This document shows positions 10,685-27,935 of a stretch of 64,000 bases of DNA, piece by piece. Each line of letters opens with the position of its first letter. Within the stretch, counting starts at the first letter, position 1. The notes below the pieces were generated by a model. That model saw only the letters and a list, made by a program, of their open reading frames with translations. It was not told the origin of the DNA and searched no databases. This DNA is from a bacterium (GTDB lineage Bacteria > Hinthialibacterota > Hinthialibacteria > OLB16): positions 1-64,000 of the forward strand of contig JAJVIK010000005.1 in the NCBI GenBank assembly GCA_022072055.1. The letters are read 5' to 3'. The position numbers and the translations under genes are program-made.

Positions 10685-10761
10685 TGGTCGGGGTGAAAGG
10701 ATTCGAACCTTCGACATCCTGCTCCCAAAGCAGGCGCGCTACCAGGCTGCGCTACACCCCG
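10685..10761 (-). tRNA. tRNA-Pro (anticodon UGG)
   Basis: Read on the minus strand this folds as a complete cloverleaf: acceptor CGGGGTG/CACCCCG, D stem GCGC/GCGC, anticodon stem CCTGC/GCAGG around loop TTTGGGA (anticodon TGG), and T arm with loop TTCGAAT. The discriminator is A and CCA is encoded (10685-10687). All stems pair. A degenerate second copy lies at 28433-28505. Confidence 0.97.
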
Positions 10762-11191
10762 ATGTGCGCAGTATACACGGGAGACCCCTTTGAAACAGGG
10801 GTTTTCAAGGTTGTGGCGGGATCAGCAATCCACTCAGAATCTGGCTTGATTCCGATTGATTCGGGGGTGATTCCAAGATCGCCCTGGCAAGAAAGTGGCA
10901 ACATGTTTCGAGGGGATTCCGGACTCGAATCTGGGTCCCCTCCTTCTTTTCTCCCCGTTCTCTTTGACCTCCGAGTTCGGTCTGTAGGAGCCAAAGGGAT
11001 TCACCCCATCCCCTAAAACTGTGTCCGCCCGGAAAGGCCAAGACTGAAGCAAAGACGCTTCAAGAGGGTCAACGGTTTCCCGGGGCCGAGGAGCCTCTGT
11101 GAGCTACGGGCCGGCGGTAGGTACCGCCATGCGGCGTACTTCTCCGTTACGTGTTCAAATCTCTTGACTTCCCTCAAGTTCAGCAGGGGTC
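10762..11191. other. Intergenic region upstream of the FHA-like gene
   Basis: 430 bases with no convincing gene. It holds a 6-bp hairpin followed by TTTT on the plus strand (ACCCCT/AGGGGT at 10784-10802) and a 7-bp inverted repeat (GGCGGTA/TACCGCC, 11113-11128). TTGACT at 11165 could be part of a promoter for the gene at 11192, but the distance to the start leaves no room for a good -10 element. Confidence 0.4.
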
Positions 11192-12607: not shown

Positions 12608-15600
12608 CTATAGATCCCGCAAGACCCTGAATCCAACTCGGCTGTGTGCGTATTCCGGTTTGTCTGTCATCCGACTAGAAGGGCGACAGTACTCTGCGCT
12701 GCTGGTCCACCCACCGCCTCGATAGACATATTTGGCGGAACACCATTCCCACACATTCCCGAGCATGTCATAAATACCCCAAGCGTTTGGAACCTTCTGT
12801 CCCACAGGATGCGTGGTCCCTTGACTATTTGAGGCACACCACGCATATTCGCTTATGTGCCTCTCGTTCATCATTTCCCAGAACTCTGAGGCTTTCCCAG
12901 CGCGACAAACGTATTCCCATTCGGCCTCCCTGGGAAGCCGATGGACTGCCCCATCCAGCAAGGTGAGCCTCCTGCAAAAATCATCCGCGTCTTGCCAAGT
13001 CACACCCTCAACAGGAAAGTCATCTCCCGCAAACGTGGAAGGATTGACTCCCATAACCTCCCTGTATTGCGCTTGAGTAACCTCATATACCCCGATGTAG
13101 AAGGGCCCCCCCAGTTCAGTACGCACACTTTCCGTGTCCCCCGTATTAATTCCGTCTGACTCCTCGGTCACGCCTTCCGAACCATCAGATTCAATCGGAA
13201 CAACAAGGACGAGATCCATACCAATGGAATTCACGATCTTCATAGATGGACCCCGCGAAGGCGAAGGCAAAGGAGTATTCGGAATGTTGCCTGGATTGCT
13301 CCGGTTGGAAGCTGTCGGCCGACCGTTCGGCGTGCCCATGATGCCGAAAAGGAGCATTAGAACCACGCCACTGACTGCAACTAATCCTTTCAAGATAGGA
13401 CGTCGGTCCCTCTGGAAAGGCGCTCTCGCGGACTTTTCCGCAAACTTCCTCATTTCCGCCGGCACAAGGTCCATCTCAATCAGCCGCTGGGCGACATCGC
13501 TGGCGCCGAGGAGGTCGGATGCCACCCATGCATCATAAAGGGTGGAAATATCCGATGAGGCGTGTGTAATCTGCGTGCGTGTGCGGTTGATTTCCGGATC
13601 CAAAGGGGCCAATGCATAGGCTTGGCCGATCAGCGAAGCGGCTTCTGAAACGTTCTTGCGCCCGCGGAATGCATCGATGGCTTGTGCGCAAAGTGACTGG
13701 GCGCGTTCAAAGGCGGTCTTGCTCGCTTCAAGAAGCGAAGCTGCCCGTGGAGTCACAAGTCCAAGCGACGAGAGTTCCACTCCAATTGATCTCACCGCGT
13801 TGTGATCTGATCGCGACGAGGCCGCGTCCAAGCGTGCACACAGTTTTACCGCTTCGCGAAGCGACACTAACGTGGCTACATGTTCAGTGTCCTTGGAGTC
13901 AAGTTCTTGCGCCTCCTCATATGCCTTGACGGCACCGTCAAGGTCCGCATCAAGACGCCTCTGATGACCCAGCTCCCTTAGTTCTTGAGCCATCTTCAGT
14001 ATGTCATAGCTCTCTTTTCCGAGCGCGCGAAGCTCGGCCGAAAGGGCCCCTTTCTCGTGGAGGACCTTTGCGAGCCGGAAAACTTCTCGATGGTCTCGTT
14101 GCCGACTGGCGAGGCGAATCTCAGTTTCAATTGCTGAGACCTCTTGCTGCTGTTCCTCCCTTTGCCTAGCCTCCTCGACCTCAGCTTCCCGCTCAAGGCA
14201 CCATTCGTCCCCAGGTCGGAGTGAAAGGAGCTCTTGCCACTTCGAGCGAGCCGACTTTCCCCTTCCATTGGAAAGATCTTCCTGAATCTCTGTGCGGAGC
14301 TGTTCCACTTTGAGGTCTAATCGTAACACCTCCACTTGCTGCAGCCGCTCTTGAGCCTCCTCGTCGCTGGGAAGAATCTTCAAGAGCAGTTTCCATGCAT
14401 CTTCAGCGTCCTCGGGGTTTCGCCTCTCCAGCGCCATCCTTCCACGAGTCCGATATTGGTCAACGAGGGCTACAGAGTCTTTCCACTGTTGTAGTTGGTC
14501 AGAGAACGACTTTATCAGTGACGACGGAGTGTGTGGTAATAATGTAAATGTCTCGATTGTTGGGGCCAGCGTCTTGATTGCGTCCTCGAGCTCACCCTTT
14601 GTCGCGTATGTTTTGGCCGTTTCGAAAGCAGCCTTGAGGTTTTTCCAACCGAGCAAATCCAACCCGCATCCGCCGCAGAACCGGATTACGTCAAGGCGAC
14701 CCTCGGTCCTGCAAGCGGGGCAAGTTTCGAAATAGTAGGACAAACTCTCGCCACAGTTAACGCAAAACCGAACTTCAGGCTTGTTCAATTCCCCGCATGA
14801 ATGACATTCGAGAGGCGAGGAAACATCTTTGTGTACGGGTCTCTCGACCTGGCGATCCTCGATCGTTTGGCCGACGGCGAGCGCTTCCCTGAATTCCGCA
14901 ACAGTTGAGAAGCGATGCAGTGGATTCTCTTCCAAGGCCTTCAGCAAGAACGGTCGGACAACATCAGGGATTCTCTCCGGACGGATGGCTCGGGGTGGCT
15001 CGCCAACCAACATATGATAGAGCGTAGCGCCCAGCGCATAGATATCAGCCCTTTCATCCACCAGCCGTCCGCTGACAAGCTGCTCGGGCGAGGCATAGAT
15101 TAGGGTTCCCATCTGGGTTCCATGGAGCGTGGTGGCGCCATCAGTCCGGCTCTCAACATGTGCAAGGCCAAAGTCCCCAACTTTGGGGGTGCCACGCTTG
15201 GTCAGGAGGATATTCCCGGGCTTGATATCTCGATGAATGATCCCCTTCTCGTGCGCGGCTTCCACACCCGCGCAGATTTGCTCAAATACGTGTAAACCTT
15301 CCCTCAATTCGTAAGCCCCCGCCCGCTCGATGCGCTTTGCGAGGCTCTCATTCTCGATATACTCCATGAGGATAAACGGGCCGTCTCGGTCGGAGCCGAC
15401 GTCAAAGATCTGGACGACATTGAAATGGTTCACGGCCGCGATCGCTCGAGCCTCGGCAAGAAATCGCTCGCGCGCTCTTTCCGAGGCAGCCAAGTCCGGT
15501 CGAATCCGTTTCATGGCGAGAGTTCGTTTCAAGTACTTGTCGTAAACTTTGAGGACAGTCCCCATTCCTCCTTCACCGATCGGCTCAAGAACCGTATAGC

Positions 15601-15784
15601 GAGCTTGTTTCCCCGGTCCCGAATCAAGGATCCCGGAGCTCGCAAGCACCTCGCCAAATGAGGATGGATCTGTGGGCGATCCACCGCCAACCGTATTAAC
15701 CTCACCGATACTCTTCGAATTCTCCTCGGACGCCGGGGGATTGGAGCGGCCAAAGTCTGTTTGTTCGCCACCAATGGAATCCAT
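12608..15784 (-). CDS. Membrane Ser/Thr kinase with double zinc ribbon and FGE-like domain (kinase 1)
   Basis: A 1058-residue protein. ATG 15784 has GGAGG at good spacing; the TTG five codons earlier does not. Kinase domain ~63-330: glycine loop GEGGMG, HRD catalytic Asp186, DFG Asp204. Residues ~340-395 carry four CxxC pairs (two zinc ribbons: CHSCGE...CVNCGE and CPAC...CGGCG). A long Glu/Ala-rich helical or TPR-like region follows, then one transmembrane helix near 810-830, then a C-terminal FGE-sulfatase/C-type-lectin-like domain (NVWEWC...RGGGW...GFRV). The layout predicts a cytoplasmic kinase with an FGE-like sensor across the membrane. Only one Cys remains where catalytic FGEs have a pair, so enzymatic FGE activity is unlikely. 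It is divergent from the ESCRT-like operon and shares its promoter region. Confidence 0.85.
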   Translation of the reverse strand: MDSIGGEQTDFGRSNPPASEENSKSIGEVNTVGGGSPTDPSSFGEVLASSGILDSGPGKQARYTVLEPIGEGGMGTVLKVYDKYLKRTLAMKRIRPDLAASERARERFLAEARAIAAVNHFNVVQIFDVGSDRDGPFILMEYIENESLAKRIERAGAYELREGLHVFEQICAGVEAAHEKGIIHRDIKPGNILLTKRGTPKVGDFGLAHVESRTDGATTLHGTQMGTLIYASPEQLVSGRLVDERADIYALGATLYHMLVGEPPRAIRPERIPDVVRPFLLKALEENPLHRFSTVAEFREALAVGQTIEDRQVERPVHKDVSSPLECHSCGELNKPEVRFCVNCGESLSYYFETCPACRTEGRLDVIRFCGGCGLDLLGWKNLKAAFETAKTYATKGELEDAIKTLAPTIETFTLLPHTPSSLIKSFSDQLQQWKDSVALVDQYRTRGRMALERRNPEDAEDAWKLLLKILPSDEEAQERLQQVEVLRLDLKVEQLRTEIQEDLSNGRGKSARSKWQELLSLRPGDEWCLEREAEVEEARQREEQQQEVSAIETEIRLASRQRDHREVFRLAKVLHEKGALSAELRALGKESYDILKMAQELRELGHQRRLDADLDGAVKAYEEAQELDSKDTEHVATLVSLREAVKLCARLDAASSRSDHNAVRSIGVELSSLGLVTPRAASLLEASKTAFERAQSLCAQAIDAFRGRKNVSEAASLIGQAYALAPLDPEINRTRTQITHASSDISTLYDAWVASDLLGASDVAQRLIEMDLVPAEMRKFAEKSARAPFQRDRRPILKGLVAVSGVVLMLLFGIMGTPNGRPTASNRSNPGNIPNTPLPSPSRGPSMKIVNSIGMDLVLVVPIESDGSEGVTEESDGINTGDTESVRTELGGPFYIGVYEVTQAQYREVMGVNPSTFAGDDFPVEGVTWQDADDFCRRLTLLDGAVHRLPREAEWEYVCRAGKASEFWEMMNERHISEYAWCASNSQGTTHPVGQKVPNAWGIYDMLGNVWEWCSAKYVYRGGGWTSSAEYCRPSSRMTDKPEYAHSRVGFRVLRDL

Positions 15785-15899
15785 CGAGATCGCCTCCAAC
15801 GGTAGTCTCTCGCTACGGACCTTGCGCGAAGCCAGATGCCGATTGCAACCTAGGTCTGGTCCGGTCCATGCTTCCCACCAGGACCCACAAGAAATTCAA

Positions 15900-15956: not shown

Positions 15957-15986
15957 TTGACAAACGAGGATACGATTGTATAAAAT
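15957..15986 (+). promoter_or_regulatory. Near-consensus promoter of the ESCRT-like operon
   Basis: TTGACA at 15957-15962, then TATAAA at 15979 (16-base spacer) or TAAAAT at 15981 (18-base spacer), within an A/T-rich stretch unlike the surrounding GC-rich DNA. It lies about 60 bases before ATG 16045 and is the best promoter match in the window, placed back to back with the kinase 1 promoter. Confidence 0.7.
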
Positions 15987-16044
15987 AAAAAAGAATAAGG
16001 CTCCGGATTCGGTTGAAGTTCACCTGCCGAAAGGACACACGACG

Positions 16045-17316
16045 ATGGAAATCTTTGATGTTGATGAGCTGGCGAGATATCTGAAGCTCAAGCCTGTCAC
16101 GGTGTATAAGTACCTCCGCAAGGGGGTTCTCCCCGGCTTCAGGGTCGGGGGATCTTGGCGGTTTCGCAAAGAAACCATCGATGATTGGATCCGTCGGCAG
16201 GAAGAGAGCGCGTTGGAAGAGGTGGAAGAAAGGGCCGGGCCCTCACCGGGGATTTCGCTTCCGGCCAGCTCACATTGCAGCCTGTGCGGGCGCACTTTGG
16301 AGGCCGGGGGTGGGGGCGGAAACTGCGAAGAAGAGGGATGCCTGGAAGAGATCTGTCCTCGGTGCTGGACCATCCTTGGTCGGCGCCGCTGTGTTCATCA
16401 CAGAAACCCGATTCTGGGAACCCGAAACGCCACGGATTCGGGCAATGGGACACGGGGGACGTCAGGTGGTCCGCCCCCGAAGGACGCCCTCGATGTGGAC
16501 CTCGCGAAATTTCGAGAAACAAACTTCCTCGAACGATTCGAATCCGTCGTCAAACAGATCAAGGCTCTGGCTGGTACCGACCCAAACCTCAAACTTCCCG
16601 TCCGCTCCTTACTCGGTCGTCGCACAACCTCTGATCAACGAGTGGGTCTCCTCCGCCTCCCGGAATGCCGGGTCGACCCCACAGATCTGGATCAACGTTA
16701 CCCTCTCAATCGATCGGTCGCCTTTGAACTCAAGAAGGACGCTAGAAAGCTCCTGGGGGATGAAGGGCCTTTCATGATCGAGGCTCGGGTATGGATTCGA
16801 CTCGAGAGCCTCCTCACACAGGGCTTCGATTACGGTCCCATCACCGATTTGGAATTGATGGCGGCGCTGGGTTCGGTGGTGGACCAAAGCAAGCGCGATG
16901 GGAGGCTGAGGATTGTCGGTTGGTATTCTCCAACTGGATGGACCCCTGAGGCGCTTTCGCTCGTTAAACCGGAAAGCGCGACACCGGTGTCCGCGATTGC
17001 CAGCGCTTACGCGAGCTTCCTGCTTATCGGTCCGGACATTCACCAGCTTTATTTCAACCCTCAAGATGCCCGCGCGAGAATCTTCGCCCCCATGTTCGCC
17101 GGAGAGTTGCCCGGGGAGACCCGGGCCAGATGTGTGCGCGCACTCAAGGAACGGATGACTGGGCTTCGGCATATTACAGTGGCGGAGGCCTCAGAGGCAG
17201 TCGGAGCGAGCGAGTCTTTAATGCGCGAGGCGATGAGGGCCTTGGCCGTTGAGGATCCGGATTATGAGGTCAAAGAGATTCAGGATGTTGGACTCACACT
17301 CATGAGGAGGAATTGA
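16045..17316 (+). CDS. Excisionase-like HTH protein with zinc finger, first gene of ESCRT-like operon
   Basis: A 423-residue cytoplasmic protein. ATG 16045 is chosen: AAAGGA lies upstream, the HTH begins at residue 1, and any earlier start would overlap the -10 element. Residues 1-50 are a MerR/excisionase-type helix-turn-helix (DVDELARYLKLKPVTVYKYL, then FRVGGSWRFRKETIDDWI). Residues 78-119 form a zinc finger: C78, C81, C94, C99, C104, C107, C116, H119, whose spacing matches the finger at the end of the peptidase encoded at 24040. The C-terminal ~250 residues are unrecognised, apart from a helical end that could be a second DNA-binding domain. As first gene behind the promoter it may be the local regulator, but many such HTH domains bind partners other than an operator. 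Confidence 0.6.
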   Translation: MEIFDVDELARYLKLKPVTVYKYLRKGVLPGFRVGGSWRFRKETIDDWIRRQEESALEEVEERAGPSPGISLPASSHCSLCGRTLEAGGGGGNCEEEGCLEEICPRCWTILGRRRCVHHRNPILGTRNATDSGNGTRGTSGGPPPKDALDVDLAKFRETNFLERFESVVKQIKALAGTDPNLKLPVRSLLGRRTTSDQRVGLLRLPECRVDPTDLDQRYPLNRSVAFELKKDARKLLGDEGPFMIEARVWIRLESLLTQGFDYGPITDLELMAALGSVVDQSKRDGRLRIVGWYSPTGWTPEALSLVKPESATPVSAIASAYASFLLIGPDIHQLYFNPQDARARIFAPMFAGELPGETRARCVRALKERMTGLRHITVAEASEAVGASESLMREAMRALAVEDPDYEVKEIQDVGLTLMRRN

Positions 17317-17319
17317 ACA

Positions 17320-17925
17320 ATGGGGCTCTTGGACAGTCTGTTGGGCAAAAAGAAGAAGACCATCAAAGACTTCGATATTCGGCAATTGGATGAGGAGAAG
17401 ATCCGCCTTGAGGAGGAAGAGAAACGCCTCATCAAGAAATTAAACAAGGCCGAAGGCGACAAAGCGGCGCTTTTCAAGGAGGGCTCCGGAAAGGAAGCCA
17501 AGCGGGAAAAGATCATCTTTGCGCGGAAGATCCAAGAGGTGGACGATCAGGCCAAGGAGATCAATTCCCGACTCAGCATGATCTCCAAGCAGCTCCGCAT
17601 TGTTCATCGCCTGCGGACTGTTCGCCAAAACGAACAACGACTCAAGGAAACCGGGATTTGGAGCTCGATCATGTCCATGGACCCTGTCGAGCTCGATGCT
17701 TACATCACCGACCAGAAAACCAAGCAAGCGCATGAGCGTGAGAGGGCCAATAGCATCCTCAGCATATTCACGGATGACGACACCTACGGCGAGGAGCTGG
17801 CTGAGGACCGGGAAACCATGGAACTGGTCCGCTTGATGGAGCAGGCCGGCGAAAGTGGGCATATCGAGGAGAAGTTCTCCGAAGCGGAGGATATCCTCAA
17901 CAAGCCGAGCCGGGAGACGGAGTAA
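17320..17925 (+). CDS. ESCRT-III-like charged coiled-coil protein A
   Basis: A 201-residue protein starting 3 bases after the previous stop, behind a strong GGAGGA site. It opens with a short amphipathic segment and a basic patch (MGLLDSLLGKKKK), like membrane-inserting N-termini of ESCRT-III and PspA/Vipp1 proteins. Residues ~20-130 are almost uninterrupted charged helix, long enough for the antiparallel hairpin alpha1-alpha2 of that fold. The C-terminal third is acidic with shorter helices (TYGEELAEDRETMELVRLM). Family knowledge: ESCRT-III proteins polymerise on membranes and are disassembled by Vps4, often through acidic C-terminal tails. Assignment rests on physical features and on lying immediately before a Vps4-like gene; an unrelated coiled-coil protein is the alternative. 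Confidence 0.55.
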   Translation: MGLLDSLLGKKKKTIKDFDIRQLDEEKIRLEEEEKRLIKKLNKAEGDKAALFKEGSGKEAKREKIIFARKIQEVDDQAKEINSRLSMISKQLRIVHRLRTVRQNEQRLKETGIWSSIMSMDPVELDAYITDQKTKQAHERERANSILSIFTDDDTYGEELAEDRETMELVRLMEQAGESGHIEEKFSEAEDILNKPSRETE

Positions 17926-17930
17926 GCCTC

Positions 17931-19157
17931 ATGGGAATCGACATCAGTGCGGGGTTGCGCGCCCGCTTGGATGACGCCGAACAGAAGGCCCGCAAGCTCT
18001 ACGAGTCCGGCGATCCTCGGCGGGCGGCTGAAGAGTTTCGCCGCTGCGCGGTCCTCATGAAGGAGCTGGTCAAGTCCGCCTCCAGCGCCGAGGCCCAGAA
18101 GATGCGCTTGGAGAAAGCCCGTCAATACCTGGAGCTGGCCAAGGGCATCGAAACCGGCAGTCCGGTCGCGGTGACCGAGTCGGAGCGGCGGGACTGGCGG
18201 GCTCCCGCGCCGGTTGCCCGAAGATCGGAGCGCCCCGAACCCACGAACCGCGACGAGGAGGAGAGCGACTATGCCTCGGCGGCTCGCGAATTCATCCAAA
18301 GCGCCAATGTGTCCTGGGATGAAATCGGAGGTCTGGAGCAGACCAAACGTGAAATCCAGGCGGGCTACGCCATCGCCATGGCCTCAGTCCCCGATGGCGT
18401 CAAGTTGAAGCGGTCCAAGGGGCTGCTCTTTTTCGGTCCGCCGGGGACCGGAAAGACCCTGCTCGCGGCGGCCACCTCGAACGGGCTGGACGCGACCTTT
18501 TTTAATGTGAAGGTGAGCGGCCTGCTTTCGAAGTATTTCGGGGAATCCTCGAAGCTGGTCACGGCGTTGTTCGAGGAGGCGCGTCGTCGCGCGCCCTCGG
18601 TGGTGTTTATTGATGAAATCGATTCGCTCGCTCCCAAACGATCGGCGGGGACAAGCGGCGCCTCGAAGCGTGTGCTTTCCACGCTGCTTGCGGAAATGGA
18701 TGGTCTCGCCACGAAGAACGACGCGCGTTTTCTGCTCACCATAGGCGCGACCAACATCCCCTGGGCGATGGATGACGCCATCCTGTCCCGCTTTGGGAAA
18801 CTCATCCATGTGCCTCTCCCCGACTTGGCTACGCGGAGGAAGATTCTCGAGATTCATCTCACCAAGTCCGGCTATCGGTGCGAAATGGACCTGGATGACC
18901 TCTCGATGAGGTCGGAGGGTTATAGCGGGCGGGATATCGAGAAACTTTGCGCGGATGCGATCGAACAGATGTTGGCGGACGCGAATTCGGATCTTGTGAG
19001 TGATGCCGCCGAACGGGCCTCGGTCCTTCAGGAAAGGACCCTCAGGCTCCGGCCAATTACACGCAATGAAATGGAGCGCGCGCTTTCAAATATCAAGCCC
19101 AAGACCGGACCCGAAGTGGTTGCCAGGTACCGTGAATGGGCTCGGGAAAGGGACTGA
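17931..19157 (+). CDS. Vps4-like AAA ATPase with N-terminal MIT-like domain
   Basis: A 408-residue protein. Residues ~5-76 are a three-helix, Ala/Leu-rich, TPR-like unit (AEQKARKLYESGDPRRAAEE...KARQYLELAKGI) with the length and heptads of a microtubule-interacting-and-trafficking (MIT) domain. After a linker the AAA module begins at ~125 (VSWDEIGGLEQTK). Walker A GPPGTGKT is at 169-176, Walker B VVFIDEID near 224-231, sensor GATNIPWAMDDAILSRF follows, then GYSGRDIEKL and a C-terminal SNIKP...YREWARE helix. The NIPW...RF sensor and YSG-x-DI motifs are hallmarks of the meiotic clade (Vps4, katanin, spastin). Family role: pulling ESCRT-III subunits through a hexamer pore. The gene lies between the two ESCRT-III-like genes with 5-base and 1-base gaps, mirroring eukaryotic and archaeal (CdvC) partnerships. 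Confidence 0.85.
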   Translation: MGIDISAGLRARLDDAEQKARKLYESGDPRRAAEEFRRCAVLMKELVKSASSAEAQKMRLEKARQYLELAKGIETGSPVAVTESERRDWRAPAPVARRSERPEPTNRDEEESDYASAAREFIQSANVSWDEIGGLEQTKREIQAGYAIAMASVPDGVKLKRSKGLLFFGPPGTGKTLLAAATSNGLDATFFNVKVSGLLSKYFGESSKLVTALFEEARRRAPSVVFIDEIDSLAPKRSAGTSGASKRVLSTLLAEMDGLATKNDARFLLTIGATNIPWAMDDAILSRFGKLIHVPLPDLATRRKILEIHLTKSGYRCEMDLDDLSMRSEGYSGRDIEKLCADAIEQMLADANSDLVSDAAERASVLQERTLRLRPITRNEMERALSNIKPKTGPEVVARYREWARERD

Positions 19158-19158
19158 C

Positions 19159-19740
19159 ATGGGACTATTCAAATCCAAGGAAGAGCGCCGCATGGAGCGC
19201 GACCTCCAGGTCCGTAAGGGGCTGACCTCGATCCGTAAGCAAATCAAGGACTTGGAACGTTATGAGAAGGACTACATCGAGAAGGCGCGCCGCGCGAAGC
19301 GGATCAACGCCGCGGATCAACTGGAGTTTCTCAAGAAGGCCATCCGGAGGACCATCGGCCAGCGGATGCTGATGGAGCGCCAGCTGCTCGCCATCGAAAC
19401 AGCCGCCCAGATGAAAGGGCAGGCCGAGTCTTACTCTGCGTTCGCCAAGGCCATGACCGCTGTTTCGAAGTCGATCTCCGAGGTCTTCGGCTCCATGGAC
19501 TTCAGCCGAACGCAGAAGGATTTCGAGAAGGCCATGTCCCGGGCGGAAAACCTCGAACAGCGCATGGATATCTTTCTCGACACAAGCCTGAACACCATGT
19601 TCACCGAAGGCTCTTCGGTGGATGAGGGGATCATTTCGGACGATGAACTGAACGCGCTCCTCGAAGGCCAGGAGAAGCCGGTAACTCATCTGGATCCGCA
19701 GGTGGCGAGGGAACTGGAAGAGTTGGAGAAGCAATTGTGA
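19159..19740 (+). CDS. ESCRT-III-like protein B (CHMP/Vps24-like) with C-terminal MIM1-like helix
   Basis: A 193-residue protein whose ATG follows the ATPase stop by one base. It opens MGLFKSKEERR, closely resembling the MGLFG start of CHMP3/Vps24, then a basic helix (IRKQIKDLERYEKDYIEKARR) and a second long helix (LKKAIRRTIGQRMLMERQLLA). Middle phrases FAKAMTAVSKSISEVF and DFSRTQKDFEKAMSRAENLEQRM parallel the ESCRT-III segment where Met-rich helices 3-4 lie. The tail is acidic, and the last 15 residues (DPQVARELEELEKQL) fit the amphipathic MIT-interacting motif type 1 pattern, offset slightly from the strict consensus. This is the more convincing of the two ESCRT-III candidates. Role inferred: membrane-bound filament remodelled by the neighbouring ATPase. 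Confidence 0.65.
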   Translation: MGLFKSKEERRMERDLQVRKGLTSIRKQIKDLERYEKDYIEKARRAKRINAADQLEFLKKAIRRTIGQRMLMERQLLAIETAAQMKGQAESYSAFAKAMTAVSKSISEVFGSMDFSRTQKDFEKAMSRAENLEQRMDIFLDTSLNTMFTEGSSVDEGIISDDELNALLEGQEKPVTHLDPQVARELEELEKQL

Positions 19741-19755
19741 GCAGAGGTGGCTGAT

Positions 19756-21924
19756 ATGTCTGAAGACCGGGTAAAGCGGCTGCGGGAACTGTTTGTTGCG
19801 GGGGAAATCGAACTGGAAGAGTTCCAGGCGATGAAGGCCCAGTTCGAAGCGGGAGCGGCTGAGATCGCCACCCCCGGAGGCTTGATCTCCGATTCGGTCA
19901 TCAAGGGGAATGTCCAAGTCGGAGATAACATCACGATCCTGCCCAAGGAGGCGATCAAGCAGCAGGCCACGATGACGGGCGAGGTCTGCGGGATCTGCCA
20001 TCGCCCGATGGTCGGGGTGGACTGGTTCAAATGCCCGGACTGCAATCGCAAACTCCATCAGGAGCATCAGACCGGTTTGGGCGGACGTTGCTCGGAATGC
20101 GATCAGAAACAGCGCCTCGCCATCGGCGATGTCCGTGAGGGAGACAGCCTCGGAACCCGCTATCAGGTGAAACGGCGCCTGGGCGAAGGCGGCATGGGGC
20201 GTGTCTTTCTCGCTCTTGATAAGGATCTCGAGCGCGATGTGGCGCTGAAAGTCCTGCCGCGTGAGATCACGCCCAACACATCCGCCTTCGAGGATCTGCG
20301 CAAGGAGGCGCAGCTCGCCACGTCTCTCTCGCATCCGAATCTGTGCCGTCTGTATGACCTGTGCAATGAGAGCGGCATTCGCTTTTTGAAGATGGAGTAT
20401 GTGGACGGCGAGACGCTGGACGAGCGAATCGCCACGAGGAAACGCGAGGGCAAGACCTTCTCGGTTGAAGAAATCCTCACTCTGGCCACAGGGATCTGCA
20501 CCGGCCTGGATTACATCCACAGCCAGAAAGTTGTCCACCGAGACCTCAAGCCCGCCAACATCATGCTGACCAAAGCGGGCGCGGTGAAGATCATGGATTT
20601 CGGGATCTCGCAGGCGATTCGTGACACGATGAGCCGAGTGTCCAACAAGTCCACGACCGGAACGCTGATGTACATGTCGCCGGAGCAGCTCTTGGGGAAG
20701 AAGCTGGATGGCCGGAGTGATCTGTACGCGCTGGGGATTGTGCTCTTTGAACTGGCCGCCGGCCACACTCCCTTCCATACCGGGCCGATCTACGAGCAGC
20801 ATCTGAACGCGCCGGTCCCGGCGGAGGAGCTGCAACATCTCCCGGCGCCGTTGCGGGCCGCCATCCTGCAACTGCTCATGAAGGACGTGAACAACCGCCC
20901 CGCGACGGCCATGGAAGCGTTGAAGCTCTTGAAGTCAGAAACGGTTCAGGCTGGCGCGGCGAAGCCTGCCCAGGAAGCTCGGGAAGCGGCCTTCCAGGTG
21001 GCTGCGGCGGAAGAGGACCGGAAGGTGGATCAGTTACGCGACGCCATCCGATTGGCCATGGCGGATGGCTCCATCAGCGACAGCGAGAAGGCGAGGCTCA
21101 ACCAAATGTGGGAGTGGTTGGGAATTCCGCGAGAAGTTGCTTCGGCGCTGGCCCGTGAGGTGCACAAGGAGATGGGAATCTCTGTAAACACTCCGGCAGC
21201 GGCTTCTCCCAGTTCTCCAAGCACTGCCCGGCCCCAGGACGAAATCATCACCAATTCGATTGGGATGAAGCTGAAGCTGATCCAACCGGGCAGCTTTAGG
21301 ATGGGCTCCGAGAAAGGTGACAACGATGAAAGACCGGTTCACGAGGTCCGCATTACGAAACCATTCTATCTGGGAGTCTACCCGGTAACCCAAGACGAAT
21401 ATGAGGCTGTTATTGGAAACAATCCGTCCCATTTCAAAAGTTCGAGCCGGCCAGTTGAAAGTGTTTCCTGGGATGACGCGATTGATTATTGCCGCAAACT
21501 CTCCGCCAAGGAAGGCGTGCAATATCGGCTGCCCTCGGAGGCGGAATGGGAATACGCCTGCCGGGCGGGGAGTACCACTGAGTATTGCTGCGGGGATGGA
21601 GAATCGAGATTGGGCCAATTTGCTTGGTATTCGGGTAACAGTGGATATAAAACTCATCCTGTCGGACAGAAGCAACCCAATTCCTGGGGTTTGTATGACA
21701 TGCATGGAAACGTCTGGGAGTGGTGCCAGGACTGGTATCACGACAGTTATGTGGGCGCTCCGACAGACGGAAGCGCTTGGAAGTCCGAAGGAGGTCCCTA
21801 TCGGGTGATCCGTGGCGGTGACTGGGGCTACAGCGCCGGGTATTGCCGTTCGGCTGGCCGTGACTGGGACGGCCCGCATGGCAGGATCAACTTCATCGGT
21901 TTTCGCCTCGCCAGGACTATTTGA
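19756..21924 (+). CDS. SHOCT/RING-like/Ser-Thr kinase/TerB-like/FGE-like fusion (kinase 2)
   Basis: A 722-residue protein; ATG 19756 has GAGG 8 bases upstream. Residues ~2-30 match a SHOCT short helical module (RLRELFVAGEIELEEFQAMK). Residues 78-115 hold a RING-like C/H pattern: C78, C81, C93, C96, H101, H104, C112, C115. Kinase ~136-390: K165, HRD Asp263, DFG Asp281. Near residues 405-465 a helical unit (AIRLAMADGSISDSEKARLN) resembles TerB. The C-terminus (~495-722) is FGE-sulfatase/C-lectin-like (YRLPSEAEWEYACRAGS, GNVWEWCQDW, CRSAGR, GFRLA). There is no membrane helix, so the FGE-like part is probably cytoplasmic. It has one Cys where active FGEs have two, so a binding or sensing role is likelier. 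It lies 15 bases after ESCRT-III-like B. Confidence 0.85.
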   Translation: MSEDRVKRLRELFVAGEIELEEFQAMKAQFEAGAAEIATPGGLISDSVIKGNVQVGDNITILPKEAIKQQATMTGEVCGICHRPMVGVDWFKCPDCNRKLHQEHQTGLGGRCSECDQKQRLAIGDVREGDSLGTRYQVKRRLGEGGMGRVFLALDKDLERDVALKVLPREITPNTSAFEDLRKEAQLATSLSHPNLCRLYDLCNESGIRFLKMEYVDGETLDERIATRKREGKTFSVEEILTLATGICTGLDYIHSQKVVHRDLKPANIMLTKAGAVKIMDFGISQAIRDTMSRVSNKSTTGTLMYMSPEQLLGKKLDGRSDLYALGIVLFELAAGHTPFHTGPIYEQHLNAPVPAEELQHLPAPLRAAILQLLMKDVNNRPATAMEALKLLKSETVQAGAAKPAQEAREAAFQVAAAEEDRKVDQLRDAIRLAMADGSISDSEKARLNQMWEWLGIPREVASALAREVHKEMGISVNTPAAASPSSPSTARPQDEIITNSIGMKLKLIQPGSFRMGSEKGDNDERPVHEVRITKPFYLGVYPVTQDEYEAVIGNNPSHFKSSSRPVESVSWDDAIDYCRKLSAKEGVQYRLPSEAEWEYACRAGSTTEYCCGDGESRLGQFAWYSGNSGYKTHPVGQKQPNSWGLYDMHGNVWEWCQDWYHDSYVGAPTDGSAWKSEGGPYRVIRGGDWGYSAGYCRSAGRDWDGPHGRINFIGFRLARTI

Positions 21925-21932
21925 CTCTATGT

Positions 21933-22000
21933 ACTGTTATTCTATTCCCCTTTGCACTGGTTTCTTTTCCGTCCTTTGCGAGCGGAGCGAGCAAAAACGC
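21933..22000 (+). repeat. 3' flank repeat downstream of kinase 2
   Basis: Sequence after the stop, ending tttgcgagcggagcgagc then aaaaacgc, recurs after kinase 3 (27942-28013) with only moderate changes. TTTGC...GCAAA can pair around GA/GA mismatches and a GGA loop, giving a small hairpin. Noncoding conservation beyond both stop codons suggests a duplicated functional element. Confidence 0.6.
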
Positions 22001-22136
22001 GTTAGAAATGAGTCTGGGAGGTTCTGCAATGTCTGAAGAGCTGTCGGTTGTATCGGGACCAAGTCAGCATGGCCTTTGTTTAAAGTGATAAACACGGGTG
22101 GGGCAGGCCCTACCCGACACACAGAGGAGGCAATCA

Positions 22137-23723
22137 ATGTCGATCAATTGGCGGGTTTTCGGTGAAGACACATTCGCGGCGAAGTTGGATAAGGCGGAGT
22201 TTCCGGGGTTTTTCTCAAAGAAGATCACCCTCGGACCGAATGAAGGGGCGGTGGTCTACAAGGACGGCAAGGTCGATTCAGTCCTCACGGAGGGGACCTA
22301 CCACACCGCAAGCCTCTGGGAGAGGGTCAAGGGCTGGTTCGGGGCGCCCACCGAGGTTCAGGTGGTGAGCTTTCGGACCACGCCCTTTACCGGACATGTC
22401 TTTCTGGGGATCAACGAGACGGATAGCGACCGAACGATCAACCGCCAGGCGCTCACCCTCGATGGGGCCAAGCTGATCGCGGAATGCGAATACATCCTCT
22501 CCATCCCCACAACCCCATCAGCCAACCCGGATCGTCTGCTTGGGCAGCATGAGGCGATTGCGACCTGGAGCATCTGTGGGGAGGTCGGCAAACTCCTCTT
22601 TTCCAGAGTCCTGCAACCCAAGATGGCCGCGGTCCGTCTCGATGAGATTCGCGGGAACACGGAACTCATCGCCAAACTGGAAACAGAGGCGCGGATTGCG
22701 GTGGCTCAGCGCTATGCCGAATCGGGACTGCAACTCGACACCCTTCGGATCATCTGGGGGCTTTCCGATGAGGAGGCGGCCGCGCTCAAACAGCGGGAAC
22801 AGAAACTGGCCGAGGATGCCGCCGCCTTCGAGCACCAGCTCAAGCTCAATCAGGAGGAGCGCAATCTCGAACTCGCGCGAACCCGCCTTGTCAACGGGCA
22901 GGAATACAAAGTCCTCCAGGAGAAGGGCGAACAGGAACTCGCGCGCCTGCATCTGGAAGGCGCGATCGAACTTGACGCCCTCAAGCGCGGGCGCGCGATC
23001 GACGTGGCCGAGGTGGATGCCCAAATTCGGCGCATCCAACTCGAAATCGAGAAGCACGAGTCCAATGTCAAGCTCGAAATCCAGCGAGCCGAGCAGAATC
23101 AACGGCTGGATCTGCAAGAGCGCGAATCGAGGCGGCGGCTGGCGGAGGTCGAGGCGAAGCTGAAACTCGAGCAGGGCGAGATGGAGCAAATGGTCAACCT
23201 CCAGATCAAGATGAAGGCGGAGAAGCACCTCCGCGAGATCGAGGCCAAGCGGCTGGAAATCGACGCTGAATTCAACTCCATGCGCCAAATGACGGAGGAG
23301 CGCCTGGAGCAACGGCGCATGAAGCTCGATGAGACCAAGACGCGCATGGCCTCCATCGAAGGCATCATGAAAAACGCCCTTTCTGCCGGGGCGGTGACTC
23401 CGGACGTGATGAAGACCTTCCTCGAGCAGGCCACCGAGCAGGAATACGCCACCAGCTCCGATGAAATGGTCAAAGCGCGTTCCCAGGCAAACGCGGCCAA
23501 ACACAATGTGGAAACTTACCAGGCCGCGCAAGCGGCCGAGCGGGAACACCAGGTCAACATCACTCAACAAGCCGCCAATCTGATGCAGGCGGCCAAACAA
23601 CCGAGCGGCCCGACGATTGTCTCGGCCACGCCGGCTCAGCCCTCGGCCCTGGCCTGCCCGCATTGCGGCGCGCAGGTTAAGGCGCATTGGAAAGCCTGCC
23701 CGGAATGCGGGACAACCCTGTAA
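22137..23723 (+). CDS. SPFH/band-7-like coiled-coil protein with C-terminal zinc ribbon
   Basis: A 528-residue protein; ATG 22137 has a strong GAGGAGG site. Residues ~1-215 look like an SPFH (flotillin/prohibitin) domain: GPNEGAVVYKDGKVDSVLTEGTY, a central strand set, then LETEARIAVAQRYAESGLQL. Residues ~215-480 are a very long charged coiled coil (Glu/Gln/Arg/Lys-rich), as in flotillins. The last 22 residues form a zinc ribbon with C507, C510, C521, C524 (CPHCGAQ...CPECG). No transmembrane helix precedes the SPFH domain, so membrane association, if any, is peripheral. Family knowledge: SPFH proteins form large ring assemblies on membranes. A scaffold for the ESCRT-like machinery is inferred from the operon. 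Confidence 0.75.
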   Translation: MSINWRVFGEDTFAAKLDKAEFPGFFSKKITLGPNEGAVVYKDGKVDSVLTEGTYHTASLWERVKGWFGAPTEVQVVSFRTTPFTGHVFLGINETDSDRTINRQALTLDGAKLIAECEYILSIPTTPSANPDRLLGQHEAIATWSICGEVGKLLFSRVLQPKMAAVRLDEIRGNTELIAKLETEARIAVAQRYAESGLQLDTLRIIWGLSDEEAAALKQREQKLAEDAAAFEHQLKLNQEERNLELARTRLVNGQEYKVLQEKGEQELARLHLEGAIELDALKRGRAIDVAEVDAQIRRIQLEIEKHESNVKLEIQRAEQNQRLDLQERESRRRLAEVEAKLKLEQGEMEQMVNLQIKMKAEKHLREIEAKRLEIDAEFNSMRQMTEERLEQRRMKLDETKTRMASIEGIMKNALSAGAVTPDVMKTFLEQATEQEYATSSDEMVKARSQANAAKHNVETYQAAQAAEREHQVNITQQAANLMQAAKQPSGPTIVSATPAQPSALACPHCGAQVKAHWKACPECGTTL

Positions 23724-23743
23724 TCCACGAGAAGGAGAGCGCG

Positions 23744-24043
23744 ATGGGAACCGAAGGCGCCGCTCATCGGCTGGAAACCCTTTCCGGGTTTCCCAAGTCA
23801 TACATCACTCTCCTCAAGCCTCACTGGATCGAGACCGCGGAGCAATTCCTTTCGGTGTGCTCCACACAGGAAGGGACGCAGGGTGTTCGGCGGCTGCTTG
23901 AGATCGATCAGCGGCGACTTGCGGACATCATCAAACAGCTCCGGGATGTAGTGGGCCAAGAAGCCGCGGATCGCCTCTCCCGCCCTGTTCCGATTAGACC
24001 GCTGGGCCTCACGTTTGGCAAGAAAGGAGAGGAGAAACCATGA
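23744..24043 (+). CDS. Small helical protein resembling the N-terminus of the next protein
   Basis: A 99-residue protein; ATG 23744 has GAAGGAG upstream, and the stop overlaps the next start (ATGA). It is all-helical in character: LKPHWIETAEQFLSVC, VRRLLEIDQRRLADIIKQL. The same succession (L...WVESAEELLSL, DVLGISAENLTRF, VAGLIGEGRARDLQRV) forms the first ~80 residues of the peptidase encoded next. The unit resembles helix-hairpin-helix-like modules of the kind that end LGI. It may act as a stand-alone partner or chaperone of the peptidase. No known family is assigned. Confidence 0.55.
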   Translation: MGTEGAAHRLETLSGFPKSYITLLKPHWIETAEQFLSVCSTQEGTQGVRRLLEIDQRRLADIIKQLRDVVGQEAADRLSRPVPIRPLGLTFGKKGEEKP

Positions 24044-25311
24044 AGATCCCCGGGCATACTTCCCTCGATCGGATCTCATCCCTTTCCGTCGAAGACAAGC
24101 AGAGGCTTGCAGGATTGTGGGTCGAGAGCGCCGAAGAGCTCCTCTCCCTGGCCGCCGCTATCGATGATGCAAAGAGGCGCGATGTTCTCGGCATTTCAGC
24201 TGAAAACCTGACAAGGTTTCGAGGGACTGTCGCCGGCCTGATCGGTGAAGGGCGTGCGCGAGATCTCCAGCGAGTGACTGTGAAAAGGGCTTTAGGGTGT
24301 ATTCTTGACGATGAAACAACGTCAACCCTCAAGGCGGGAAACCCCTTAACACCCGAGCGGAAGAAGGCCCCGTTCGCCTTCGAAAAGGAACTTCCCGGCC
24401 AGGTCCGCCTGCTGCCAGGCTTGGGGCCGGTCAAAGACCAGGGCCAACGTGGCGCCTGTGTCGCCTTTGCCTCAGCAGCCCTGCGGGAATACCTGGAAGG
24501 CGGACAGGAACAGCTCTCGGAGCAATTCCTCTATTGGGCATGCAAGGAGCTTGATGGGGTTCCATCGGAGGGAACCACTCTGCACACGGCCATGGCGGCT
24601 CTGGCCGAGTACGGAGTCTGTCGGGCTCTGACATGGCCCTATAACCCCGTGCCTGATATGTGGAATGAAGGACAGGGCCCGCCGCCGATGTCAGCCCTTT
24701 CCGAGGCAAAGGAATATCAACTGCATGATTGCCGCCCTGTGGAATCGACCCTTGTTGATCATTACAAACACATGCTTGCCGGTGAGGATGGCCAGCCGGG
24801 CATGCCCGTGGTGTTTGGAATCCCTGTTTACCATGAATCCTTCTTCAATGCCGAAACTGAGAGAACCGGAAAGATTTTCGTCCCACTGCCCGGATTCAGT
24901 CTTATCGGCGGACATGCGATGTGCGCTGTCGGCTATGTCGATGATAAAGAAGTCCCCGGCGGCGGTTATTTCATAGTCCGGAACAGTTGGGGGCCTGATT
25001 GGGCCGCGGAAAACCCCGAGGCCCCGGGGCACGGCTTGCTCCCGTACGTCTATCTCGCTCAATTCGGGATCGAAGCCTTCACGGGTCCCACCTCCCACCA
25101 ACAGTTGACCGGGTCAGGGCCTCGAATCGCCGAGTCGCTGTCGGAGATATGCGCCGCCTGCGGCAAACCCTTCGTCACCGTGATTGATCGGATCGGAGTG
25201 TGTATGGAGGAAGGATGCGCGAAGGATATCTGCAACAATTGTTGGACTGTCAAGAAGGTTCATCGCTGTCGGGCGCACCAACGGAACCGCAAGGCAATTC
25301 ATAAGGACTGA
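24040..25311 (+). CDS. Papain-like (C1) cysteine peptidase with N-terminal helical module and C-terminal zinc finger
   Basis: A 423-residue protein without signal peptide, unusual because most C1 peptidases are exported or lysosomal. Residues 1-85 repeat the helical module of the upstream gene. The C1 core spans ~105-345: oxyanion Gln124 and nucleophile Cys130 (VKDQGQRGACVAFASA), His282 (GGHAMCAVGY), Asn305 (FIVRNSWG), so all catalytic residues are present. Residues 361-403 carry the finger C361, C364, C378, C383, C388, C391, C400, H403, nearly identical in spacing and wording (C-x-EEGC, IC-x-x-CW) to that of the HTH protein at 16045. A regulated cytoplasmic protease acting on a component or client of the locus is inferred. 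Confidence 0.8.
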   Translation: MKIPGHTSLDRISSLSVEDKQRLAGLWVESAEELLSLAAAIDDAKRRDVLGISAENLTRFRGTVAGLIGEGRARDLQRVTVKRALGCILDDETTSTLKAGNPLTPERKKAPFAFEKELPGQVRLLPGLGPVKDQGQRGACVAFASAALREYLEGGQEQLSEQFLYWACKELDGVPSEGTTLHTAMAALAEYGVCRALTWPYNPVPDMWNEGQGPPPMSALSEAKEYQLHDCRPVESTLVDHYKHMLAGEDGQPGMPVVFGIPVYHESFFNAETERTGKIFVPLPGFSLIGGHAMCAVGYVDDKEVPGGGYFIVRNSWGPDWAAENPEAPGHGLLPYVYLAQFGIEAFTGPTSHQQLTGSGPRIAESLSEICAACGKPFVTVIDRIGVCMEEGCAKDICNNCWTVKKVHRCRAHQRNRKAIHKD

Positions 25312-25327
25312 AAGGAAGCGTGCTCCC

Positions 25328-26176
25328 ATGGGATTGATTTCAAAAAGCGTCTCATTGCTGCTCAACCCACGAGCGACTGTTCCACTCCTGATTGTTGCGA
25401 CAGGTTGGGGAGTGTTCCACTATCTTTTGCCCGAAAAGAAGGAACTGGATGAGAGCCGGCGGGAGTTGGCGCTCGATACGGTGAACAAGATCACATCGGA
25501 ACTGCCGCGAACCGACGGAATGGAAAAAGCGCTTGTCCTTCCGTTGGAGAATGATCCGACCGGCGAGGTCACCGGGATGCTCCGTTCGAGTCTGGATTCC
25601 ACCGGGATGTACCAAGTTCTCGACCGCCCGACTCTGGACCGGATTCTCAATGATCTTCACTTGCCGGAACGCCGCGCCGCCAGTCTGGAAGAGGCAAGGA
25701 AAATGGGGGAAACGGGGCAGGCACGATTTGTCTTCTCCGGCGAGGTCCGGGAGCTATCGAATCTGCAGGATCGGCGTCGCTGCGAGATCGCCCTGGCGGT
25801 GATCGATACCACCACATCCGGACTCGCTCTCCGTCGCACATGGACCTCTGAGGCTGGGACATTAGCCGCGCTCGGAGGCGGGTCGAGCGGCGGCGTGAAG
25901 GTCTTTCTCCTCAAGACTCTCCTTCTCTTCTTTTTCGTGATCGCCTTGCCGGTCATTACCTTCAAACTGGTACAGATTGTTGTGGCTCAGGAATCAAATG
26001 CGGTGAACCTGTTCATGCTGATCGGCTATACCGTTGCCGATCTTCTATTCGCTTTCTTCTTGATGGGATTTGACGCATCTTCGGCGAGTCGCCAGACCGC
26101 GCTGGCCCTCGTCGTTATTGCGGCCTTCTGGCTGAACTACAAGATCTGTGATCGGATCGAGGCTTTGGGGCGTTGA
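25328..26176 (+). CDS. Four-helix membrane protein with CsgG/LpoB-like domain
   Basis: A 282-residue protein. ATG 25328 is chosen; GAAAGGAAG lies upstream. One N-terminal membrane helix (TVPLLIVATGWGVFHYLL, ~17-35) is followed by a soluble domain (~45-185) of the type seen in CsgG, FlgO and LpoB: MEKALVLPLENDPTGEVTGM, then LRSSLDSTGMYQVLDRPTLD, RFVFSGEV and CEIALAVIDTTTSGL. Three more hydrophobic helices follow (LLLFFFVIALPVITFKLVQIV; LFMLIGYTVADLLFAFFLM; ALALVVIAAFWLNY). If helix 1 is an uncleaved anchor, the soluble domain would face the outside. It may be the membrane receptor or anchor of the system. Its stop is 13 bases before kinase 3. Confidence 0.6.
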   Translation: MGLISKSVSLLLNPRATVPLLIVATGWGVFHYLLPEKKELDESRRELALDTVNKITSELPRTDGMEKALVLPLENDPTGEVTGMLRSSLDSTGMYQVLDRPTLDRILNDLHLPERRAASLEEARKMGETGQARFVFSGEVRELSNLQDRRRCEIALAVIDTTTSGLALRRTWTSEAGTLAALGGGSSGGVKVFLLKTLLLFFFVIALPVITFKLVQIVVAQESNAVNLFMLIGYTVADLLFAFFLMGFDASSASRQTALALVVIAAFWLNYKICDRIEALGR

Positions 26177-26189
26177 AGGTTCTCCAACA

Positions 26190-27935
26190 ATGGCTGGCTT
26201 AGCAACCGGTTCCAACATCGGCCCTTATCAAATCCGCCGCCTCCTTGGGCGGGGCGGGATGGGTGAAGTCTATCTGGCGGAGAACCGGCATACCGGCTGG
26301 AAGCGGGCGCTCAAGGTCTTGCCGCAAGAGCTCTCCACCAAGTCTGATTTCATCCTTCGGTTCAAGCGCGAGGCTGCGGTCCTCGATCAGTTGGAGCACC
26401 CCGGGATTGTCCGGGTGCGCGAAATGGGGGAAGACCAGGGGCGCTTTTATCTGGTGATGGATTACATCGACGGTCCCGAAGGTAAGCCCATGACCTTGGC
26501 GGACCATGCCACTCAATCGGGGGGCCCCCTTGATCCTGTGAAACTCGGCAAGATCCTCATCGAAGTCTGCGAAGCGCTATCTTATGCGCACGGCAAAGGG
26601 GTCATCCACCGCGACCTCAAGCCCTCCAACATCCTCCTCAACCACGAAGGCCGGGCCATCGTCAGTGACTTCGGCTTGGCGCGAGTGGTAGGCCGGGAGT
26701 TTCTCCAGAGCCGGATTGAGGAATCCATCTCGCGGTCGATGTCCATTGGCCAAGGGAAAACGATGTTCGCTCCCACGCCGGTCGATCCGAGCATTGGACA
26801 GGAAGCGACCGGCGACGCGCTGGGTAGTTCATCCCGGTCCATCTTGGGAACTTGGGACTATATGGCCCCGGAGGTGAAGGACGGAGAAGAGGCGACCGAA
26901 AAGAGTGACATCTATGCGGTGGGAGTGATTCTGTACCGGCTGCTGACAGGCGTCCATCAGATCGGTTTCGAGATGCCGAGCGAGCTGGTGGATGGACTGG
27001 ATGAGGAATGGGACCGGGTTTATCGGACTGCGGCTGCGACGCGACCAGAGAGACGTTACGCCAAATGCCTCGACCTGATAGAGACGGTTCGCCGCCAGCT
27101 GTCCACACCATCATCGCCACGGGCCAAACAGACAGCCATCCAGGTCACTGCGGCGGAAGAGGACCGGAAGGTGGATCAGCTGAAGGAGATGGGAATCCCT
27201 GTCAAAGCTCCTCCAGCTGGTACTCCCCGTTCTCCAAGCGGCCAATCGCTCCAAGATATCATCACCAATTCGATTGGGATGAAACTGAAGCTGATCCAAC
27301 CGGGCAGCTTTAGGATGGGGTCCGAGAAAGGCGGTTCAGACGAGGAGCCGGTCCACGAAGTTCGCATCGAGGAGCCCTTCTACATGGGCGTCCACGAGGT
27401 GACGCAGGGGCAGTGGAAGGCGGTGATCGGATCAAACTTCAAGGGAGATGACAGCCTCCCTGTGGAGCAAGTCTCGTGGGACGAATGCCAGGAGTTCTTG
27501 AAGAAGCTCTCGCAGAAAGAGGGGGAATCCTATCGCCTGCCGAGTGAGGCTGAATGGGAGTACGCCTGCCGCGCAGGGAGCAAGACGGAATACTGCTACG
27601 GAGATGACGCGGATAGGCTGAGGGAGTTCGCGTGGTACATCCAAAACAGCGGCGGAAGGACGCACCCCGTGGGTCAGAAGCGACCAAACGCTTGGGGGTT
27701 GTACGACATGCACGGAAACGTGTGGGAGTGGTGCCAAGACTGGTACCACGACAATTATGTGGGCGCGCCGACGGATGGGAGTGCCTGGGAATCTGGTGAA
27801 TGGTCTTCCTATCGGGTGCGCCGTGGCGGCGGCTGGGACAACTTTCCCGAGTATTGTCGTTCCGCGGATCGCCGCAGGGGCGACCCGGCGTATCGGTTCA
27901 ACGACATAGGCTTCCGTCTTGCCAGGACCTCGTAA
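26190..27935 (+). CDS. Ser/Thr kinase fused to FGE-like domain (kinase 3)
   Basis: A 581-residue protein; ATG 26190 has GAAGGT at 9 bases. Kinase ~13-300: glycine loop GRGGMG, K42, HRD Asp142, DFG Asp160. The activation segment is unusually long: about 55 residues rich in Ser/Thr lie between DFG and the APE motif. After a linker the FGE-sulfatase/C-lectin-like domain (~360-581) follows. The linker phrase AAEEDRKVDQL equals that of kinase 2, but the ~43-residue TerB-like piece present there is missing here, an in-frame deletion. FGE catalytic Cys pair is not present (one Cys in YCRSADR). Last gene of the operon; no membrane helix seen. Confidence 0.85.
   Translation: MAGLATGSNIGPYQIRRLLGRGGMGEVYLAENRHTGWKRALKVLPQELSTKSDFILRFKREAAVLDQLEHPGIVRVREMGEDQGRFYLVMDYIDGPEGKPMTLADHATQSGGPLDPVKLGKILIEVCEALSYAHGKGVIHRDLKPSNILLNHEGRAIVSDFGLARVVGREFLQSRIEESISRSMSIGQGKTMFAPTPVDPSIGQEATGDALGSSSRSILGTWDYMAPEVKDGEEATEKSDIYAVGVILYRLLTGVHQIGFEMPSELVDGLDEEWDRVYRTAAATRPERRYAKCLDLIETVRRQLSTPSSPRAKQTAIQVTAAEEDRKVDQLKEMGIPVKAPPAGTPRSPSGQSLQDIITNSIGMKLKLIQPGSFRMGSEKGGSDEEPVHEVRIEEPFYMGVHEVTQGQWKAVIGSNFKGDDSLPVEQVSWDECQEFLKKLSQKEGESYRLPSEAEWEYACRAGSKTEYCYGDDADRLREFAWYIQNSGGRTHPVGQKRPNAWGLYDMHGNVWEWCQDWYHDNYVGAPTDGSAWESGEWSSYRVRRGGGWDNFPEYCRSADRRRGDPAYRFNDIGFRLARTS

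Follow-up and report, generated by a model that had tools for sequence, protein, structure and literature searches.

A probable bacterial ESCRT-III/Vps4 operon resembling the euryarchaeal 'Main' type in a genome of the phylum Hinthialibacterota

Do some bacteria possess a dedicated pair of ESCRT-III filament protein and Vps4-type ATPase? PspA and Vipp1 (IM30) are the recognised bacterial relatives of ESCRT-III. The question is raised by a cassette of three neighbouring, co-directional open reading frames, encoding a small protein A, an AAA ATPase and a small protein B, which lies in the first 64,000 nucleotides (hereafter the window) of contig JAJVIK010000005.1 from a bacterium of the phylum Hinthialibacterota (assembly GCA_022072055.1). 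An earlier interpretation based on the DNA letters alone, here called the sequence-only reading, had presented these genes as a bacterial ESCRT-III/Vps4 cassette whose members lie 5 and 1 bases apart; these spacings and the gene positions are confirmed (table 1), and its interpretation largely holds with respect to B and the ATPase, although less firmly for the sequence homology of A and for the MIT domain of the ATPase. It had also stated that partnerships of Vps4 with MIT domains are established for eukaryotes and archaea, in agreement with the published assignment (PMC10936438). Our results indicate, with a probability of about 0.8, that this bacterial locus represents an ESCRT-III/Vps4 operon of the type called 'Main' in euryarchaea.

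On the basis of its sequence, protein B is a member of the ESCRT-III (Snf7) family. It matches the Pfam Snf7 model with 27.8 bits (cut-off 27.3); the same model also matches all five of its first relatives, and Snf7 is the top or only family in eight of ten further planctomycete relatives (E 1e-5 to 3e-3), whereas neither A nor B has a Pfam match to PspA_IM30. When a 23-row profile of B was compared with 177,635 PDB sequences, CHMP3 (1.5e-4), Snf7 (2.2e-4) and CHMP1B filled the first nine places, which bears out the resemblance to CHMP3 proposed by the sequence-only reading. With an 8-row profile, only ESCRT-III proteins were found below E 1, aligned over profile positions 13-168, whereas the reversed-sequence profile of the same composition retrieved no ESCRT-III protein in the PDB search, on which ground a chance similarity was rejected. 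The AlphaFold2 (AF2) model of B, built from five sequences, shows helices at residues 7-48, 52-110 and 114-150 followed by a C-terminal helix at 180-191, and its best fold match in the PDB by Foldseek is CdvB of S. islandicus (probability 0.96-0.97, E 0.085). B is 46-49% identical to most of its planctomycete relatives, with which it has the start MG[IL]FKSKEERR in common; a longer, GTG-started frame (19000-19740) also exists, but the ATG at 19159 is favoured because it yields this start, common to most relatives. The conserved C-terminal helix has MIM1-like spacing (LDPQVARELEEL) without the usual basic residue, its positions 182 and 186 being at least 90% conserved, and may be the site at which the MIT-like domain of the ATPase docks. 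(Two other Snf7 matches among 386 bacteria looked false, one being an MlaD/mce-type protein and the other a ribosomal S2 frame).

The ATPase consists of an MIT-like three-helix N-terminus (approximately residues 1-75), a linker, an AAA domain (approximately 116-350; Pfam AAA match of 129 bits) and a C-terminal helix similar to Vps4_C. The AAA core has Walker A, Walker B, a sensor and an arginine finger. Motifs noticed by the sequence-only reading are present and invariant across six full-length relatives, namely Walker A (GPPGTGKT), Walker B (D228/E229), N275 in NIPW and R287 in SRF. The Vps4-type C-terminal helix, in contrast, is clear in four of six relatives (best E 1.7e-6) but weak in the window protein (14.9 bits, under the cut-off of 21.3). 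A scan of our genome collection for full-length relatives returned five proteins, three from Anaerolineae, one from Methanothermococcus and one from a Planctomycetaceae bacterium; a profile built from these and the window ATPase separates full-length relatives, at 346-645 bits, from all other AAA proteins, which reach 244 at most. In a phylogenetic tree of 54 AAA domains, this family falls in one clade with Vps4 of Methanococci and Thermococcus (support 100/99), while addition of CdvC, of a second group of MIT-like AAA proteins and of TPR-AAA proteins gives a larger group with support of 96/96, outside which lie Cdc48, PAN and FtsH. The joint grouping of the bacterial members is unsure (91/46). 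By its sequence relationships the enzyme is thus of the Vps4 type, as had been proposed from the motifs, and kin of euryarchaeal Vps4 rather than of ordinary bacterial AAA families. The second AAA ATPase just mentioned is encoded near B in six loci, several planctomycete and one of Anaerolineae (L201, L202, L206, L207, L208 and L218); it has a related MIT-like N-terminus (hhalign 97%) and forms its own clade near the TPR-AAA proteins.

The N-terminus of the ATPase is likely to be an MIT domain, judging from profile comparisons. A 28-row profile of its first 85 residues matched the MIT domain of Vps4B over positions 6-83 (E 0.012) and that of MITD1 (E 0.064); these are the best near-full-length matches among natural proteins in the PDB, those to TPR proteins spanning a single repeat. 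Comparison with hhalign gave 48% to the MIT domain of CdvC and 3% to genuine TPR-AAA proteins from sister genomes; the MIT matches are near full length but of E 0.01-0.06 only. Two other genomes of the phylum (G011 and G007, loci L013 and L014) encode such TPR-AAA ATPases; they were rejected as orthologues given the 3% between the N-termini and their separate clade. Next to the ATPase gene at L013 lies one for a TPR protein that seems to have membrane helices, similar to what PMC11237479 describes for VPS4-like proteins without snf7.

Protein A is predicted to be ESCRT-III-like from its modelled architecture and operon position, in the absence of a direct ESCRT-III sequence match. Its AF2 model contains helices at residues 20-56, 61-111 and 122-150, with a mean pLDDT (the model's per-residue confidence) of 74 that rises to about 80-94 in the first two. 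Clear relatives are encoded beside Vps4, directly before it, in Anaerolineae and Methanococci (BLASTP 3.7e-22 to 9e-15), and A is also homologous to two proteins of an operon on a plasmid of Thermococcus peptonophilus. Hence, of the claim that both small proteins are ESCRT-III-like, the hairpin stands as a prediction for A and B and the Snf7 match for B, whereas A does not have the corresponding sequence match. The sequence-only reading had named what would speak against it, namely small proteins without a hairpin, an ordinary AAA clade and a TPR N-terminus; what we find is a predicted hairpin in both, a Vps4 clade and an N-terminus closer to MIT. (In the Anaerolineae locus L049, at 10749-11675 on the minus strand, the encoded protein joins an A-like segment to a C-terminal part of thermonuclease-type appearance).

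The bacterial case is no isolated curiosity, the family having members in three bacterial phyla. Among 294 Planctomycetota genomes, 44 (about one in seven) encode a full-length Vps4 relative, as do 2 of 350 Chloroflexota and 13 of the 36 genomes of the phylum of Methanococci. B is present in 54 of the 294 Planctomycetota genomes, including 43 of the 44 that have Vps4 (Fisher p 4.5e-40), and in 40 of these 43 the two genes share a contig, with a median gap of 140 bases and 39 of them within 1.5 kb. Loci that combine A-like, Vps4 and B-like genes are found repeatedly, and since the operon recurs across phyla, its arrangement is not due to chance. One Chloroflexota copy resides on a plasmid of 375 kb from Candidatus Chlorohelix allophototropha, its genes being annotated merely as hypothetical or ATP-binding. 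On the plasmid of T. peptonophilus the order is a small protein, a 607-residue homologue of the window's upstream protein (1e-23 with the corresponding model, A4), two A-like proteins, a kinase, Vps4, a PP2C phosphatase and a Snf7-like B, a gene set that matches the published euryarchaeal 'Main' ESCRT clade (PMC10936438). Members of the Vps4 family lie on plasmids of a phototrophic member of the Chloroflexota (NZ_CP128401.1), of T. peptonophilus (NZ_CP014751.1) and of haloarchaea (NZ_CP084091.1), and this location suggests mobility between domains.

The gene upstream of A encodes a protein that combines a helix-turn-helix domain (HTH_17, E 2.3e-15; the TTG start is uncertain) with a Cys/His region, a central domain containing an SPTGW motif and a C-terminal region. 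In Chloroflexota, Methanococci and Thermococcus, genes for A-like proteins and Vps4 have a homologue of it as neighbour; it aligns with its counterparts at L047, L048 and L065 and gives BLASTP values of 2.6e-36 to L217 and 3e-10 to Methanococci. Together with its 607-residue homologue, it is probably the counterpart of archaeal arCOG09748, an ESCRT-II-like winged-helix protein with which we equate it from the published description (PMC10936438).

How does the locus compare with known systems? The euryarchaeal 'Main' system comprises Vps4, ESCRT-III, arCOG09748, arCOG08177 and a kinase and phosphatase (PMC10936438), and the window shares with it the Vps4 subfamily, homologous A-like and upstream proteins, an association with kinases and a Snf7-like B, as also seen in Thermococcus. 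It differs in its bacterial host, in having one A-like gene instead of two, in the HTH_17 domain and zinc region of its upstream protein and in the FGE-sulfatase-type (formylglycine-generating-enzyme-like) domains of its kinases; neither an arCOG08177-like gene nor a PP2C phosphatase was found in 15976-27935, and the archaeal cluster c23, the candidate for arCOG08177, has no member in the part of the window examined. With the CdvB/CdvC system of TACK archaea it has in common an operon that joins an ESCRT-III filament protein to a Vps4 ATPase, of MIT type there and probably so here; the two ATPases also share the larger clade of AAA domains, and CdvB is the top fold match of B. The window differs in its bacterial genome and in an ATPase of another subclade than CdvC, and a CdvA gene was not identified. 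PspA and Vipp1 are similar in belonging to the ESCRT-III superfamily, in their helical hairpin and in their proposed role in membrane remodelling, but B matches Snf7 and has a dedicated Vps4-type ATPase as neighbour. Reports of VPS4-like proteins that bacteria acquired from archaea are confined to cases with snf7 displaced and in a TPR/6TM context, and some Snf7/PspA genes adjoin other AAA proteins (PMC11237479). The former share with the window ATPase a Vps4-related AAA domain in bacteria, and the TPR-AAA genes in two other genomes of the phylum fit their description; these have true TPR N-termini, a separate clade and no ESCRT-III gene seen beside them. We found no report of a bacterial operon of Snf7 and Vps4 of this kind in the open-access literature, preprints and most subscription papers lying outside the scope of the search.

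ESCRT-III subunits polymerise on membranes, and hexamers of Vps4 pull them off again by threading. Such an action is compatible with the products of the conserved genes: a Vps4-type ATPase, one or more putative filament proteins whose N-termini are basic, a presumed recruiting protein and kinases. By analogy, B and probably A would attach through basic, amphipathic N-terminal stretches to the cytoplasmic face of the membrane and assemble there into filaments of ESCRT-III type, perhaps nucleated or recruited by the upstream protein of helix-turn-helix or winged-helix type. The MIT-like domain of the ATPase would then dock on the C-terminal tails of the filament proteins and the AAA hexamer would thread subunits through its pore, the resulting turnover bending, cutting or sealing the membrane, while the adjacent kinase may regulate the filament by phosphorylation. 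The process served could be membrane repair or scission, and in planctomycetes the shaping of endomembranes.

Several points weigh against this interpretation. The margin of B above the Snf7 cut-off is thin, unrelated bacterial coiled coils obtaining 21-24 bits with the same model; A has no Pfam family, neither A nor its close relatives match Snf7, its 19-row profile found no ESCRT-III protein in the PDB and its fold search placed several ESCRT-III entries in the top 50, none significant. The AF2 models were built from five to six sequences with Foldseek E-values above 0.05, the N-terminus of the ATPase has no Pfam MIT match and its assignment relies on weak scores, and the AAA tree was built without eukaryotic or Asgard Vps4. 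One might accordingly suspect that B resembles Snf7 merely as a charged helical coiled coil, a notion to which its low identity to ESCRT-III lends some colour; the failure of the reversed profile, the exclusive ESCRT-III matches of the forward one, the length of the alignment and the tie of B to a Vps4-clade ATPase make such a compositional artefact very improbable. For A the matter is different. It may not be ESCRT-III-like at all but a separate scaffold, for example a coiled-coil nucleator playing the part of CdvA or arCOG08707, with B as the only substrate of Vps4, and this possibility, which we take seriously while giving it less than an even chance, agrees with the negative PDB profile and the value of just 47% between A and B in hhalign. 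The helix order of its model is nevertheless ESCRT-III-like, and at L047 in Chloroflexota and in Methanococci loci an A-like gene without a B-like one stands beside Vps4, which in several loci leaves no filament candidate other than A-like proteins.

Another view is that the ATPase is a Vps4-derived unfoldase and that A and B, its adaptors or substrates, are soluble coiled-coil proteins of a complex under control by phosphorylation; the system would then be derived from ESCRT but would not remodel membranes. Genes for kinases, FHA proteins or phosphatases indeed dominate the neighbourhoods, the core cassette has no apparent transmembrane anchor and A lacks ESCRT-III sequence similarity; but B combines family membership with a conserved basic N-terminus and hairpin, the defining feature of the family for membrane polymers, and an SPFH (Band_7) protein accompanies a planctomycete locus, which leaves the soluble complex unlikely. 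It is scarcely credible, finally, that the contig is archaeal contamination or mis-binned, even if A, B and the full-length ATPase were absent from the other 13 of the 14 genomes of this small phylum by single-sequence searches, which also gave no second copy. The host genome (5.86 Mb, 32 contigs, 96.6% complete) carries in this same window SecA (60681-63629) and a bacterial-type PheT (38398-40875; phenylalanyl-tRNA synthetase beta chain), and the GC content, 58.0% in the cassette, is 60.4% in the window once 15976-27935 is excluded, the third-position GC of the cassette lying within the range of its neighbours. On these grounds contamination was rejected and the cassette is considered bacterial, with no sign of fresh acquisition; many planctomycete genomes and a complete Chloroflexota plasmid also carry relatives. 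(A viral origin was tested as well: in viral contigs, model A1 gave only AAA-domain matches and A6 none, while phages yielded no match to B).

Retaining the ESCRT-III/Vps4 operon as our interpretation, we can ask how old it is. A tentative and rather doubtful proposal is that the bacterial branch is ancient, diversified within this phylum, Planctomycetota and Chloroflexota as sister of the euryarchaeal branch, and constitutes a working scission machine for internal or cytoplasmic membranes of bacteria. If so, a dedicated pair of filament and disassembly ATPase would not be a speciality of archaea and eukaryotes. The matter bears on the history of the machine, which may have spread between domains by transfer, considered here because plasmids of Chloroflexota, Thermococcus and haloarchaea carry relatives, or be older than archaea. 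Planctomycetota are noted for their internal membranes, and the frequency of the Snf7-Vps4 operon among them offers bacteria in which ESCRT function is testable by deletion and imaging.

Table 1. Positions of the cassette and its neighbours in the window
Feature	Position	Strand	Basis
Upstream operon gene, 446 residues, HTH_17 N-terminus, zinc-binding Cys/His region	15976..17316	+	Pfam, alignment, BLASTP
Protein A, 201 residues, predicted helical hairpin, N-terminal amphipathic stretch MGLLDSLLGKKKK	17320..17925	+	AF2, BLASTP
Vps4-type AAA ATPase, 408 residues	17931..19157	+	Pfam, profiles, tree
Walker A motif GPPGTGKT, residues 169-176	18435..18458	+	Translation; invariant in six relatives
Protein B, 193 residues from ATG, ESCRT-III (Snf7) family	19159..19740	+	Pfam, PDB profile search, AF2, Foldseek
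Ser/Thr protein kinase, SHOCT-like N-terminus, FGE-sulfatase-type C-terminal domain	19747..21924	+	Pfam
Coiled-coil protein, 541 residues, C-terminal zinc ribbon	22098..23723	+	Pfam zinc ribbon only
Papain-like (C1) peptidase, C-terminal zinc-binding region; possible further locus member	24040..25311	+	Peptidase_C1 E 5e-11
Second Ser/Thr kinase, FGE-sulfatase-type domain; possible further locus member	26148..27935	+	Pfam

The locus is larger than the three-gene cassette to which the sequence-only reading had confined it, the tight run comprising five genes: the upstream gene ends 3 bases 5' of A and a kinase gene begins 6 bases 3' of B. This kinase is probably a regulator within the same operon, and in related loci, too, Vps4 repeatedly has kinases as neighbours. 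Beyond it, on the same strand, follow the coiled-coil/zinc-ribbon protein, the papain-like peptidase and a second kinase. The first of these may be analogous to a protein of archaeal ESCRT loci that combines SPFH, coiled coil and zinc ribbon, although no SPFH domain was detected in it and BLAST gave no match to the Band_7 protein of a planctomycete locus. The peptidase shares with the upstream protein a Cys/His zinc-binding region of the pattern C-x2-C ... C-x4-C-x3-IC-x2-C ... RC-x2-H, to which its match with model A4 is confined and which is also present in the Anaerolineae homologues at L047 and L048. C-terminal FGE-sulfatase domains are found in three Ser/Thr kinases (12608-15799, 19747-21924 and 26148-27935), which flank the ESCRT locus and lie inside it.

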